From a virus: a stretch of 37,037 nt of DNA. The translations under genes were made by a program, and so were the position numbers. Numbering within the stretch: position 1 is the first letter of the stretch; each line of letters begins with the position of its first letter. The DNA lies in IMG/VR virus record IMGVR_UViG_3300025030_001001, positions 1 to 37,037 of that record, one strand, 5' to 3'. Shown here piece after piece: positions 6,265 through 30,164 of the stretch. The notes under the pieces are model-generated. The model was given only the letters and a program-made list of their open reading frames with translations. It was not told the DNA's origin and did no database searches.

Positions 6265-7100
6265 TGGATTGCTTCTGTGAATTTTTTCCAATTCAAACCA
6301 CTTTCCGCTTTTGCTATCATTACTTCTGCAGGGGCAGGGTGAAAAAATCCGTTGATTTTCCAAGTAAAAAGAATTGCTTGCAAATCATTAGGATTTATTT
6401 CAGCAAGTTTAGCTACAAGGTCTTCTCTTTTCTTATCGGCTTCTTCTGCCTTTGCTTTGGCTGCTTTTTCAGCTTCTTCAGTCCTTTGCTTTTCAGCTTC
6501 TTCTTGTTTTGTTTTTCTTTCAGCAACTCTTTGTGCTTCGCCTTGTAAGTTCGGCTCTTGACCATATTCATAAAGAATTTCCTTTTCTTCTTTTTCTAAA
6601 GCAATGGAAAAATCCTCATTATTCAAAGCAATAAATCCAACAGGTGCTTTTGCAGTTGCTCCTTTATAGGTGTGAACTTTTTGTTTCCTACGATAAGCTA
6701 ATTTCCCATAAGAGTTAATAGCAACTCTTTCTTCGTGACATCTCATATAGTAGCCCTGAACCTTTTCTTCTGCATCTAATGCAGTTTGAATTTTAATTTG
6801 TGGATTTTCAATTTCGCATCCAAATTCTTCAATAATTTCAGCTATTTGCTCCATTAAAGGATTTGCAATAGCTTCTTCTTGTGAGTTAATCCAATCAATA
6901 TTTTGGCTTGGACAAATTATTGTACAGCTAACACCGAATGTTCCATTTTGTTTTTGAAACACGTAGGTTTTAGTTGACATTTTTTTGGTGTTGTAGCCCT
7001 TATCTAAATAGATTCGTTTTACATCACCTTTAGCCCATAATTTACCGTTGATTTTTTCAGCAAGTGTTTCAATGCTGATTGTTTTGATTGTAGTTTTCAT
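6261..7100 (-). CDS. Hypothetical protein with central coiled coil, first gene of the first early operon
   Basis: This 279-residue protein has a beta-rich N-terminal half (YVFQKQNGTFGVSCTIIC), a highly charged Glu/Lys/Ala coiled coil at about residues 195-230 (AEKQRTEEAEKAAKAKAEEA), and a short helical C-terminal domain. No catalytic motif is visible. The ATG at 7100 lies just downstream of the control region at 7175-7345, so it opens the operon that continues through helicase, nuclease and the IbrA/IbrB-like pair. A structural or adaptor role in replication is possible but unproven. Confidence 0.75.
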   Translation of the reverse strand: MKTTIKTISIETLAEKINGKLWAKGDVKRIYLDKGYNTKKMSTKTYVFQKQNGTFGVSCTIICPSQNIDWINSQEEAIANPLMEQIAEIIEEFGCEIENPQIKIQTALDAEEKVQGYYMRCHEERVAINSYGKLAYRRKQKVHTYKGATAKAPVGFIALNNEDFSIALEKEEKEILYEYGQEPNLQGEAQRVAERKTKQEEAEKQRTEEAEKAAKAKAEEADKKREDLVAKLAEINPNDLQAILFTWKINGFFHPAPAEVMIAKAESGLNWKKFTEAIQ

Positions 7101-7174
7101 TGTGGTAAGTTTTTTGGCATCTTTTTCCTTCTGCCATTGGCTGCATCTGTTTCTATGCGTTGTTTAATTTTGAT

Positions 7175-7345
7175 ATGCAAATATCTGCAAAGTTTTGCAA
7201 GTATGCAAGTTTTTTATCAATTATTTTGCAATTTTATTTGCATGATATTTAATCAGTTGCAAAGGTTTGCGAAAATAAGTTGATTTTCGCCCAAAAAAAG
7301 AAGGTGAAATTTCGTCAGTTTTTGGCGAATTGAAAGAAAAAGTGA
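7175..7345 (-). promoter_or_regulatory. Early control region, copy 2 (171-bp direct repeat)
   Basis: This aligns end to end with 2266-2436, from ATGCAA to AAGTGA, with scattered substitutions and no net length change. On the minus strand TTG (7208-7206), 20 bases, then GATATTTG (7185-7178) matches the TAnnTTTG element except for one base. GCAA motifs at 7178, 7188, 7198 and 7206 are 10, 10 and 8 bases apart. It drives the operon starting at 7100. The rest of the gap 7101-7645 holds only the decayed + strand ORF. Confidence 0.65.
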
Positions 7346-7378
7346 ACATCTACAGTTGTGTCAATCCTTCAATGGTGA

Positions 7379-7660
7379 AACAAAGCACACTTAGGAATTA
7401 TTAAGTGTTTTTATAATTATTCATATAAGTTTGATATTAATAATATTGATACATTTATTCAAGGGGCTTGGAAGGGGCTTAGAAGCCCCTCAGGTATAGG
7501 TAATGGTATAGGTATAGGTAATAATAAAGAATATAACAAAATCCGTTGCAACCTTCGTTCTCAGGAATTTCTGTATAAGGAAGAAAAAGAAAAAGAAAAA
7601 AAAATAAATAAGATAAAAGCAAAAGCCAACAGAGGAGAGGAAAAATTACTTAACGATTAA
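7379..7660 (+). pseudogene. ATG-less + strand ORF, probable remnant of a larger gene
   Basis: After a TGA at 7376-7378 the + strand stays open for over 90 codons to TAA at 7658-7660, with no ATG in frame. The translation looks protein-like: DTFIQGAWKGLRSPSG, a Gly-Ile-Gly-Asn run (7494-7522), a KEEKEKEKK stretch, then GEEKLLND. Gly/Asn linkers followed by Lys/Glu runs are common in phage replication-initiation or replisome-organiser C-termini, so this may be the tail of such a gene. It overlaps the 3' end of the spanin-like gene by 15 bases, convergently. A non-ATG start cannot be excluded. Confidence 0.3.
7473..7490. repeat. Perfect inverted repeat AGGGGCTT/AAGCCCCT
   Basis: Eight-base arms separated by AG make an almost loopless palindrome in the gap downstream of the lysis genes. 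A related half, AAGGGGCTT, lies just before it at 7461-7469. No T-tract follows on either strand, so it is not a standard terminator, though it could stabilise a 3' end. Confidence 0.55.
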
Positions 7661-8344: not shown

Positions 8345-8688
8345 TTTCTGTAAATAGTATTAAATCCAATGCCAAAAGCAGTGCGGATAATTAAAAAGTC
8401 AATGATAATATTAAACATAGGAGTATATAATACTACTCCAAAACCTATACATAATAACATGATAGCTTTTATTAAGTGCCAACCGTCTGTAAACATTACT
8501 GGAATGTTTAATATCCACCATTTTCTCCTTCCGTCTCCTACCATCTGATTATTATATTTATTAACCCAGCTATAGTGAGGATTCCAAAACTGTTCGTTTA
8601 AATTCCAATTATAAGGATAATGAAACTGCAATCTATCCATCAATCCATTACAAAATCCTGCTACAAATAACAGTATTATGCTAACCAT
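8341..8688 (-). CDS. Small polytopic membrane protein
   Basis: The 115-residue protein starts with a hydrophobic stretch (MVSIILLFVAGFCNGLMD), has an aromatic-rich amphipathic middle (residues 22-42, many Tyr, Trp and Asn), and two more hydrophobic segments (IKAIMLLCIGFGVVLY, MFNIIIDFLIIRTAFGIGF). About three membrane passes are likely. It overlaps neighbours by 8 and 4 bases. No known holin family is recognised; membrane function in lysis is inferred from location. Confidence 0.7.
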   Translation of the reverse strand: MVSIILLFVAGFCNGLMDRLQFHYPYNWNLNEQFWNPHYSWVNKYNNQMVGDGRRKWWILNIPVMFTDGWHLIKAIMLLCIGFGVVLYTPMFNIIIDFLIIRTAFGIGFNTIYRK

Positions 8689-8887
8689 TTCTTTTGTAAA
8701 TTAGATAATATGATAATATCATCGCACACCATATTCCAAAAAAACATAGTGACACAAACAATGCTACTGTTGGGTTCTCTTGTCGTGATGACACCGACCC
8801 GCAGATTAAGAAAGCCATAAAGCAAGTTAATCCCAAAACGCCAATAGCTCGCTTTCGTTGGCTAAATAGAAATTTAATAAAGTTCAT
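8681..8887 (-). CDS. Small two-TM membrane protein (possible holin-type)
   Basis: I chose ATG at 8887 (MNFIKFLFSQRKRA, 68 residues) rather than the upstream ATG at 8914, because a promoter element (8892-8919) overlaps the longer version and places the transcript start at or next to ATG 8887. Two hydrophobic segments (GVLGLTCFMAFLICGSV and ALFVSLCFFGIWCAMILSYY) flank a short polar turn, a class II holin-like shape. It heads a three-gene membrane operon with the spanin-like gene. The holin role is inferred. Confidence 0.65.
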   Translation of the reverse strand: MNFIKFLFSQRKRAIGVLGLTCFMAFLICGSVSSRQENPTVALFVSLCFFGIWCAMILSYYLIYKRNG

Positions 8888-8891
8888 TCTG

Positions 8892-8919
8892 CAAAGATAA
8901 TAATTATTGTTCACTACAA
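8892..8919 (-). promoter_or_regulatory. Promoter of the membrane-protein operon
   Basis: On the minus strand TTG (8919-8917), 17 bases, then TATCTTTG (8899-8892) matches the Bacteroidota consensus. Transcription would begin at about 8885, giving a leaderless or nearly leaderless mRNA for ATG 8887. Two TAGTTATCAG repeats lie about 33 bases upstream. Confidence 0.65.
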
Positions 8920-8929
8920 ATTAATCCAT

Positions 8930-9200
8930 AGAAACTTTTATCCCTTAATAATAGTTATCAGAGAATATAGTTATCAGATTAAGATTGATGACAACTATTA
9001 GGCTACCTATCATTACCCATATCCCTTATATGGTTATCAGTTTAAAGCTATTTAAACTATTATTAAGGACAACGTTGTCAAGTTTCAGACATAGCGTTGA
9101 TTTCACTTTAAACATCAACAATGAACATAACCTCTACTTTTTGTTTAAACGACTTCAATCTTGTCGTTAGGGAGTGGCTGGTTTTGAACTCCGTTATGTG
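8930..9200. other. Gene-free region with direct and inverted repeats
   Basis: No convincing gene is present. It contains TAGTTATCAG at 8952-8961 and 8968-8977 and a related GTTATCAG at 9033-9040. It also holds a perfect 12-bp palindrome GACAACGTTGTC (9067-9078), GTTGAT/ATCAAC arms (9095-9100, 9113-9118), AACGAC/GTCGTT arms (9148-9153, 9163-9168) and GGAGT/ACTCC arms (9171-9175, 9188-9192). Repeats upstream of the promoter at 8892 may be activator or repressor sites; the palindromes could be protein-binding or recombination sites. Confidence 0.5.
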
Positions 9201-9204
9201 AAAA

Positions 9205-9244
9205 TAAAAAAACCCAAACAATAACTGGGGAGCCGTGTCTGGGT
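9205..9244 (-). terminator. Rho-independent terminator of the small RNA
   Basis: On the minus strand ACCCAGA (9244-9238) pairs with TTTGGGT (9218-9212), seven pairs with one G-T, followed by a run of T through 9206 and ATTTT. The 19-base loop contains the GGCTCCCC that can pair with upstream sequence. It would also stop read-through from the DUF5675 gene. Confidence 0.7.
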
Positions 9245-9330
9245 CTTAGCTATTTCATTACGAAATAGTTTATGATTATTTACTGGCTTCCCCTGAGTAA
9301 ACTATATGTAAAGAACTTTTTCTTATCTAC
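9205..9330 (-). ncRNA. Predicted free-standing structured small RNA
   Basis: A promoter at 9336-9366 would start a transcript near 9330 that ends at a terminator with a seven-T tract at 9212-9206, about 125 nt and without an ORF. On the minus strand I see ATAGTTTA (9305-9298) pairing perfectly with TAAACTAT (9272-9265); CTATTTC (9268-9262) with GAAATAG (9256-9250); and the terminator stem. GGGGAAGCC (9293-9285), in the loop of the first stem, can pair with GGCTCCCC (9234-9227), in the terminator loop, with one bulge. That would be a kissing-loop or pseudoknot. The first two stems share four bases, so a switch is possible. No known RNA family is recognised. Confidence 0.55.
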
Positions 9331-9335
9331 AAGTG

Positions 9336-9366
9336 CAAAAATAAACAATGTTTCATTACAAACCAA
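9336..9366 (-). promoter_or_regulatory. Promoter of the predicted small RNA
   Basis: TATTTTTG (9343-9336 on the minus strand) matches TAnnTTTG. TTG triplets lie 15 bases (9361-9359) and 20 bases (9366-9364) upstream. The element sits between the DUF5675 stop at 9421 and the structured RNA. Confidence 0.55.
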
Positions 9367-9420
9367 ATAAAAAGACAACTATTTTTTAATTATTTTTGCT
9401 TTGTAATGTTCACGGCAGTT

Positions 9421-9858
9421 TCAAACAATAATCAATTTAAATTTATTCGGCATCATCTCGTAAATTTTGGCAAGGGTATTTTGAGAATCCAATATATCGT
9501 CTTGACCATCTTTATTGATGTCCCCACGACCTTGCCCTACTAAGATGCAACCACGGCTGTTAAAGAAGTGGTTGCCATAATGTATAAGTATCTCGCTTCT
9601 TCCATCTACATTATGTATCCAAAAGCATTTAGCGTAATGTGGAGAACTGTGCTTTACCACTTCATATTCTCCTTTTGGGATACAGCTTTTTCCATATTCA
9701 TTATCTTTCTCTGGCAGTTCCAGCGTATCAACTTCATAAAAAGGATGCCCCCATTCATCGAGCAAGGTCATCTTGCCAATAGTCTGAACACCGTTGTCGG
9801 GTTCTCTAACTATTTTCATTGAGAAGTTATCTTTCATTGAAAGGTAATATTTTTTCAT
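9421..9858 (-). CDS. DUF5675-family protein (phage lysis-region protein)
   Basis: The core pattern is TIGKMTLLDEWG, VDTLELP, CIPKGEYEV, then SEILIHYGNHFFNSRGCILV, which matches DUF5675; the H-x-G-N plus GC pairing recalls YkuD-like folds, but catalysis is unproven. An insertion GDINKDGQDDILDS looks like a dockerin/EF-hand calcium loop. ATGs are available at 9858, 9837 and 9819; I give the most upstream. The frame continues upstream to a TTG at 9882 and then a TAG. The protein is the only plausible wall-active candidate in the window, next to holin-like genes. Confidence 0.75.
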   Translation of the reverse strand: MKKYYLSMKDNFSMKIVREPDNGVQTIGKMTLLDEWGHPFYEVDTLELPEKDNEYGKSCIPKGEYEVVKHSSPHYAKCFWIHNVDGRSEILIHYGNHFFNSRGCILVGQGRGDINKDGQDDILDSQNTLAKIYEMMPNKFKLIIV

Positions 9859-9885
9859 TGAACGGATATTGTTTAGCAGCAACTG

Positions 9886-28402: not shown

Positions 28403-30164
28403 GTCTTTTTATTTTTTTATTGTTATATGGTTGTTTTTCTGCTTTGTTTTCATAGAGTATCTTTTCCGCTTTTAAGTTTTGGTTTTCCTCTTGAAGACTT
28501 TTAATGATGTCGCCCTGTCCCGATATTGTTAGCATAGCTCTCTCTAGCTCATCTTCCGCAAAGAGCTTCTCGTCTTTTGGAGCGTCCAAAATAACAACGA
28601 GTCCCTTTTGTACAAACGATTTAGCCGTGCTTGCATCCAACTCTAATATTTTGCCAATCGGCTGAAAGGGTTTACCCCTAAATCTGTCATTGATAACTTT
28701 ACATTTCATCATTCCTAAATTATTAGTTAATATTATTTTATCATCTTTTTTGCCACTTCCATTGCCTGACTCTCTCTGTGTTCCTGTCAGCACTAAATCT
28801 ATCCATACTATATTTAGCTTCTTGTACAATTCGCTTATCACCCTATAGTCGCCACGCCTCCACTCTGTCCATGTTACGTCTTTTAGGTGTTTTGAATTAA
28901 ACATAAAACCAATTCCTGAAATATCTTTAACCACTGGCTCACATCCAAAATGTTCATCGCTTGGAACTATAATGCTTCCGATTTTCACCCTCCATAATAT
29001 CAAGTCGTCTTCTCCTGTGATGCTATTAGTAATAGTATCAAGAGCATTGTTATTTATGAAAATATCATCATCATCAAGGTATATCACCCACCCCTCCTTC
29101 ACCTCTTTTGCCATCTCATTCAAATAAAGATTGTAAGGGAAGTGAGCACCGTAATTTTGTGTGTTTTTATGTAGGGTTTTATCGACTTCTATCCTATCAT
29201 AATATGTAGAATAGGCATTGTATTTATAAGTGTATGTATCAACCGCCCCTTTCTCTATGCCTAATATTGACTGCACGTTCTTATATTTTTGGAAATATAT
29301 ACTGTTCATTAATCCGTCTATGTAGTTGGCTCTGTTGCTTGCCCTTGTCAGTATGTTTACTTTTGGCTTCTCATCTACATATACCTGCTTGATGGTCTGT
29401 AGTAAGCCCTCGTAGTTGTCGCTGTAGTATATGTCGCTGCCTCCTATCTTTGGATACCATCGCCAAAACGACCCCACTTGAAGCTCTTTACATTGCTTGC
29501 TATATATGATATTTTTGCCTCCAAAATAAGAAGCCAGGATACTATGTCCTCCATTCATGGTGATGAAATGTTCGCAATTGGCAAATATTTTCAACTGTAT
29601 AGTATTGAAACTTTCATCTTTAAAGTCGTGGATATTGATGACCTCTGGATATTGTTTTAATAGTTCAAAGTCTCCTATATTTACAGGCTCTATATTGTCG
29701 TAGTATTCCTCCCTTCCTTTTATATTGATATAAACTATCGTATATTTGTCTTTTAAGAGGTCAAACATATCCCTTAGACATCGTATATTGAAATAGTTTA
29801 TCGGCGGCTTGCCCCATTCTTCATTAATTCTGTTGCATATCACTACAGTTGGCTTGTCCCATTTGTATTTAGTATTCTTGTAATGATATTTGTAAGGTGG
29901 CACTTTAAACTTACTAAAGTCAAAGTATGGGTTGTGGATGGCTACATTGGGCACTCCTGAATGTAATGCCGCCTCCATATTATCCCATGACCGCCCTGTG
30001 TCCTCCTCTGTGTGGTCAGGGGAGAAGTAATATAAAGGCGAAGTGTCGAAGCTACTTATAGTGCCATCTAGCTCACCCTGCATGTGTAGGTAGTACGCAT
30101 AAGGCAAAGCACTCAACAGCTCGTACCCGAACTCTATATGATTTGCGTGTACTATTTTGGACAT
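28386..30164 (-). CDS. Two-domain glycosyltransferase
   Basis: Residues 1-265 form a GT-B-like domain (ANCEHFITMNGGHSILASYF at about 195-214, then FGGKNIIYS). Residues 268-480 are a GT2-like GT-A domain: VNILTRASNRANYIDGLMNS, then WVIYLDDDDIF (359-369) with the acidic metal-binding motif. A short C-terminal module follows (KILELDASTAKSFVQKGLVV), which is common at ends of phage head proteins, and then a coiled coil. It transfers sugar from an NDP donor to an unknown acceptor; virion proteins or host glycans are candidates. It overlaps the methyltransferase gene by 13 bases. Placement after the capsid gene is unusual. Confidence 0.8.
   Translation of the reverse strand: MSKIVHANHIEFGYELLSALPYAYYLHMQGELDGTISSFDTSPLYYFSPDHTEEDTGRSWDNMEAALHSGVPNVAIHNPYFDFSKFKVPPYKYHYKNTKYKWDKPTVVICNRINEEWGKPPINYFNIRCLRDMFDLLKDKYTIVYINIKGREEYYDNIEPVNIGDFELLKQYPEVINIHDFKDESFNTIQLKIFANCEHFITMNGGHSILASYFGGKNIIYSKQCKELQVGSFWRWYPKIGGSDIYYSDNYEGLLQTIKQVYVDEKPKVNILTRASNRANYIDGLMNSIYFQKYKNVQSILGIEKGAVDTYTYKYNAYSTYYDRIEVDKTLHKNTQNYGAHFPYNLYLNEMAKEVKEGWVIYLDDDDIFINNNALDTITNSITGEDDLILWRVKIGSIIVPSDEHFGCEPVVKDISGIGFMFNSKHLKDVTWTEWRRGDYRVISELYKKLNIVWIDLVLTGTQRESGNGSGKKDDKIILTNNLGMMKCKVINDRFRGKPFQPIGKILELDASTAKSFVQKGLVVILDAPKDEKLFAEDELERAMLTISGQGDIIKSLQEENQNLKAEKILYENKAEKQPYNNKKIKRHATTI

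Follow-up and report, generated by a model that had tools for sequence, protein, structure and literature searches.

Genomic setting and anatomy of the RNA locus

The window (i.e. the whole 37,037-base stretch of DNA analysed here) is the IMG/VR virus contig IMGVR_UViG_3300025030_001001. Every phage gene that Pfam or PHROGs recognized in it is on the minus strand, and the gene order runs from terminase, portal, capsid, tape measure and tail genes through small genes to early genes. The genome has a GC content of 36.5%, and the closest relative found is another IMG/VR contig (L007; 58% for one tail gene). The host is probably a member of the Bacteroidota because the late proteins resemble those of Flavobacterium phages (28–29% identity). 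The RNA locus sits ~77 nt after a DUF5675 gene and ~300 nt before the next gene. The label 'lysis region' is plausible for these surroundings, given the DUF5675 gene before the RNA and three short putative membrane/spanin-like genes after it. The features of the locus are:

9421–9882, minus strand: upstream gene, DUF5675 (PF18925), from an open reading frame and a domain match
9336–9367, minus strand: Bacteroidota-type promoter, TTTG-N20-TATTTTTG (-7 box 9343–9336), from a pattern match
9265–9305, minus strand: alternative stem, ATAGTTTA (9305–9298)/TAAACTAT (9272–9265), from folding
9278–9302, minus strand: hairpin H1, stem GTTTACT/AGTAAAT (9302–9296/9284–9278) and loop CAGGGGAAGCC (9295–9285), from folding
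9285–9293, minus strand: kissing arm 1, GGGGAAGCC, in the H1 loop, from pairing energy
9264–9275, minus strand: linker-like stretch TCATAAACTATT, with two mismatches to the linker WAARAAMYTATT of the RNA class described below and an extra hairpin after it
9250–9268, minus strand: hairpin H2, CTATTTC-GTAAT-GAAATAG (9268–9262/9256–9250), an insertion relative to that class, from folding
9206–9246, minus strand: intrinsic terminator with a 9–11 bp stem, a 15-nt loop and a run of seven T (9212–9206)
9227–9234, minus strand: kissing arm 2, GGCTCCCC, in the terminator loop, from pairing energy
8892–8920, minus strand: second Bacteroidota-type promoter, TTTG-N17-TATCTTTG, immediately 5' of the next gene, from a pattern match
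8681–8914, minus strand: next downstream gene, a short putative membrane protein with no family assigned

Transcription is expected to start near 9330, and the predicted RNA from there to 9206 is ~125 nt long. The original prediction described a minus-strand TAnnTTTG promoter, about 125 nt of non-coding sequence with three inverted repeats and a terminator with seven T. All of these are present: the box TATTTTTG lies at 9343–9336, H1, H2 and the terminator (stem ACCCAGACA/TGTTTGGGT, 9244–9236/9220–9212) form the three repeats, the T run occupies 9212–9206, and there is no convincing reading frame (no minus-strand open reading frame of at least 60 aa crosses the locus). The proposed pairing of the first loop with the terminator loop is likewise found: GGGG(A)AGCC at 9293–9285 pairs with GGCTCCCC at 9234–9227 through eight pairs and one bulged A, with a computed energy of -13 to -16 kcal/mol. 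Two stems were also thought to compete for four bases. The alternative stem does share CTAT (9268–9265) with H2 and overlaps H1 as well, but it is ~6 kcal/mol worse than H1 plus H2 and the competition is weak. As anticipated, no known family was recognized: the window RNA has no Rfam or tRNA match, and the Rfam near-misses within the window (snoRNA, K10 TLS, Phe leader and others) are attributed to chance. From its letters and predicted folding, a self-standing, terminated, structured RNA with a contact between loop and terminator is well supported.

Several further features lie near the RNA. The second promoter (8885–8920 region) stops 4 nt short of an in-frame ATG of the 8681–8914 gene, which suggests a very short or leaderless 5' end. 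A perfect 14-nt inverted repeat (8943–8956/9055–9068) surrounds GTTATCAG repeats, and the fold of 8943–9068 beats shuffles on both strands (z of -2.3 and -3.0); it may represent an operator or another RNA. A 44-nt stretch at 9107–9150 has 84–87% identity to a segment of a Hint/intein-like frame from Prevotella Lak phages and, with its stops and frameshift, is possibly a decayed remnant or a chance match. Farther away, a long non-coding stretch 5' of the early genes (7100–7645) is rich in TTGCA repeats, also has ACCTATACC repeats together with a GGGGCTTCTAAGCCCC hairpin, and looks origin- or operator-like.

A class of kissing-terminator RNAs in phages

No homologue of the window copy was found by blastn in phages, by its exact terminator pattern in IMG/VR, or by searches with the neighbouring proteins, and the closest relative (L007) gave no match. 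A pattern with the exact loop letters matched once, in coding sequence of a GC-rich virus, and this match was discarded. Because no sequence relative was found, the layout was searched instead. A common arrangement emerged in L035, L037, L066 and L103, which are distant relatives, and in Danklef and Freya, phages of Polaribacter: a short hairpin follows a TAnnTTTG-like box, and an A-rich linker leads on to a terminator with a large loop complementary to the first loop.

IMG/VR was scanned with a pattern of promoter, linker and T run only, and all class counts are counts among the matches listed. The finder gave 59 matches in 3.2 Mb, of which 50 (scores of at least 28, among the matches listed) were kept as clean members, while an equal amount of shuffled DNA gave 13 matches with a best score of 25.5. 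A stricter descriptor fitted 0 of 800 shuffled copies of the pattern sites (first 80 loci). The 76 strict-pattern matches in bacterial genomes included none that fit the full layout. The class thus defined consists of at least 50 phage RNAs in IMG/VR plus those of the Polaribacter phages.

Members share the order TATATTTG promoter, H1, an A-rich linker close to AAAGAAATTATT, a kissing terminator and usually a start codon next. The RNA would start a few nt after TATATTTG, and H1 begins 1–10 nt after the promoter box. In many of the terminators the outer stem is followed by an internal loop, GAGUAG/CGAAA, and then by a short inner stem that carries the kissing loop; the AGUA/GAA part of the internal loop presumably resembles a bulged-G (loop E) module. 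The RNAs are squeezed tightly between genes: in 42 of 50 members no more than 31 nt separate a same-strand stop from the start of the promoter box, and in 49 of 50 the T run ends 0–29 nt before an ATG. They are located before replication, helicase or HNH genes, and among the products of the genes behind them are DUF6291 and HTH proteins, helicases, NUMOD4/HNH endonucleases, a ParB-like methylase and a primase-polymerase.

Members in IMG/VR include L141, L155, L168, L171, L174, L176, L183, L209, L212, L233, L234, L255 and L258, each with its own self-complementary loop pair and mostly right before an early-type gene. Three contigs (L183, L171 and L255) carry two members with different and non-matching kisses. 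The isolated Polaribacter phages Danklef_1 (L071:1520–1622) and Freya_1 (L072, same place) have a member with the kiss GGTGGAA/TTCCACC, downstream of DnaA-HTH and NTP-PPase genes. In MT732458.1 this member lies near 28556–28660, and its RNA would be about 85–95 nt long, with the T run at its end. Flavobacterium phage FPSV-S2 (L010:23095–23168) contains a class-like leader in which a TATATTTG promoter, a hairpin and an A-rich linker precede a terminator with a plain GAAA loop and no kiss, which suggests that the contact can be dispensed with. No convincing member was found in Maribacter phage Panino or in LR756500, a phage of 462 kb, although both gave promoter-like matches.

Covariation of kisses and stems

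The 45 distinct loop pairs comprise 39 different kiss sequences, and within each RNA the two loops are complementary over 6–10 nt. By contrast, when loops are paired across members whose kisses differ, 2.1% of the combinations are complementary over 6 nt or more. Because a kiss of at least 5 was already a requirement of the finder, the unbiased count was made on pattern matches without a kiss requirement. With a broad pattern, a kiss of at least 6 occurs in 40 of 51 distinct intergenic viral sites (among the matches listed); with one strict pattern, a kiss is present in 15 of 18 distinct viral sites versus 2 of 74 sites in bacterial genomes. One further site (L166) seems by eye to pair with a G-U wobble.

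The stems also covary. MAFFT misaligned the hairpins of the full set, and a narrow seed with a covariance model was used instead. In the resulting alignment of 44 matches, which may contain a few false ones and leans towards structure because it was fitted to structure (the kiss being outside the model), all 20 stem pairs show double changes and 95% of cells are paired. None of 500 shuffles reached the covariation score, and pairing falls to 52–56% if the partner is shifted by one column. Pairwise identities, from a small sample and rough alignments, hint that the kisses change faster than the rest.

Covariation had been named as a check on the original prediction. No alignable homologue of the window copy itself was found; in about 50 other phage RNAs, compensatory change maintains the same kind of contact.

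Relationship of the window RNA to the class

The window RNA, which shows the layout of the class and lacks several of its features, is likely a divergent member. A TAnnTTTG promoter lies upstream on the same strand, the intrinsic terminator has its T run, and the H1 and terminator loops are complementary over eight pairs with one bulged A, against a class minimum of 6 nt, with an energy within the range of members. Ahead of the terminator lies a linker-like stretch that deviates from the class linker at two positions. By contrast, H1 begins 34 nt after the promoter box, the extra hairpin is inserted in the linker, the AGUA/GAA internal loop is absent, and the RNA is not squeezed between a same-strand stop and an ATG. 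Class covariance models give the window copy 9.3–13.7 bits (E of 0.02–0.05 in a 361-nt search) and, run over the whole window, report no match at the RNA locus.

These differences bear on the alternative that the locus is an ordinary intergenic promoter plus terminator, with loop complementarity that arose by chance and a class elsewhere that is unrelated. Taken by itself the promoter pattern has no significance (4 sites across the window versus 2.3 expected). The fold is more stable than nearly all shuffles (z = -2.3; 3 of 200 equally stable). An upstream partner as strong as that of the window terminator occurs for 11 of 1,803 terminators (0.6%) in shuffled genomes. Over all terminators of the relatives, complementarity at -12 kcal/mol or better is not enriched (8 of 140 real versus 11 of 138 shuffled); kissing alone is thus not above background and counts as evidence only in combination with promoter, linker and context. 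Against chance, a whole-layout descriptor, which combines promoter and T run with H1, the linker-like stretch and the kiss, finds one site in the window and none in 3,157 shuffled genomes, a figure that is optimistic because the descriptor was written and loosened after the window was seen. Also, the kiss is GC-rich in a genome of low GC content and falls exactly within two hairpin loops. Although the class models miss the window copy and its linker, spacing and gene context differ, we regard chance as an unlikely explanation, albeit one of some weight.

Proposed mechanism

The reading that we prefer, at about even chances, is that the window RNA is a self-terminating RNA of the attenuator type, with its own promoter and terminator and an H1–terminator pseudoknot, and that the contact most likely sets termination. 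This rests on analogy as well as on the predicted anatomy. The promoter would produce a ~125-nt phage RNA (9330–9206, minus strand) that is ended by its own terminator. During transcription, the H1 loop would pair with the terminator loop and lock the 5' hairpin and the terminator into a compact loop–loop pseudoknot. The contact would then set the efficiency of the terminator, and read-through would depend on pseudoknot formation, as in an attenuator-type leader. It may strengthen the terminator or hinder closure of its stem, as the sequence fits either direction. In the window, the RNA may act mainly as a stand-alone small RNA and as a terminator or boundary that separates the DUF5675 gene from the small genes after it, because the next gene is ~300 nt away and has its own promoter (8920–8892).

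The original prediction offered either a phage small RNA or a switch that decides termination. The self-standing, terminated RNA and its loop contact are well supported at the level of sequence, the competition between two stems is weak, and the compensatory upkeep of the contact in ~50 other phage RNAs favours the reading as a switch.

A trans-acting phage small RNA, base-pairing with host or phage mRNAs through exposed loops, would also have its own promoter and terminator, a stable 3' end and no gene directly behind it. However, both loops are predicted to be engaged with each other and no other site within the window is complementary to either of them, and we consider this role distinctly improbable. 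It is very unlikely that the RNA is a ligand- or protein-sensing riboswitch, in which the kissing fold, conserved linker and internal loop would form an aptamer that includes the terminator: the two-hairpin topology with a terminator hairpin, as in guanidine-IV/Gd4v, and the retention of the linker and often of the AGUA/GAA internal loop in class members would fit, but the kiss is hypervariable, unlike the highly conserved guanidine-IV pseudoknot, the downstream genes are diverse and the window copy has no internal loop.

If the attenuator-type reading is true, a widespread RNA module of Bacteroidota phages, as yet without a name, links a 5' hairpin to the terminator directly before replication and endonuclease genes, through a loop pair that is hypervariable yet always self-complementary. 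To our knowledge, early-gene control in these phages is poorly understood. Isolated Polaribacter phages carry a class member, which makes the idea testable in culture.

Comparison with known systems

Neither the window nor any of 18 class loci has an Rfam match that reaches the family's threshold, and no published description of the class was found in the literature searched, which covered sources other than the expected source description of RT-14. The nearest catalogued relative of the class is RT-14 (RF02921), because it matches class members in the A-rich linker, the terminator stem (13 bp) and the UAGUA/GAA internal loop; the short inner stem is also alike. The 5' half differs, however, class members score 22.8–33.1 bits, all below the gathering score of 48.1, and the window copy has no RT-14 match.

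In plasmid copy-control RNAs (e.g. of the ColE1, R1 and pIP501 types), what becomes of a transcript ahead of a replication gene depends on fast loop–loop pairing. The loops vary in sequence among relatives, and the pairing partner is antisense, transcribed from the opposite strand, whereas in the class both loops are within one RNA. The kisses might be a fast-changing specificity code, by which each RNA recognizes only its own terminator loop. Released leaders could then act in trans on transcripts that the same phage is still making, while sparing those of relatives that infect the cell at the same time and those of a second copy within one genome. This would give phage replication operons an equivalent, on the same strand, of the RNAs that govern copy control and incompatibility in plasmids, and we see it as a long shot.

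The abiF RNAs (RF03085, e.g. RCd22) are phage-encoded units of promoter, small RNA and terminator directly 5' of a gene, in which the terminator limits read-through (PMC12373285). The class has the same kind of unit before a gene. In contrast to it, abiF RNA is an RNA antitoxin for AbiF, and the genes behind class members are not abiF.

Guanidine-IV and Gd4v riboswitches consist of two hairpins and a pseudoknot, the second hairpin being the terminator, and switch termination (PMC9788692). The class and guanidine-IV (mepA motif)/Gd4v are alike in having two pseudoknot-joined hairpins with an intrinsic terminator as the 3' hairpin. They differ in that the pseudoknot nucleotides of these riboswitches are highly conserved, whereas the kiss of the class differs between almost all members, and there is no guanidine-IV Rfam match in the window or in the class member examined. 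Because the topology and the kind of place are the same, control of terminator efficiency appears to be the most economical mechanism for the class, and guanidine-IV shows that an equal topology can make a real termination switch.
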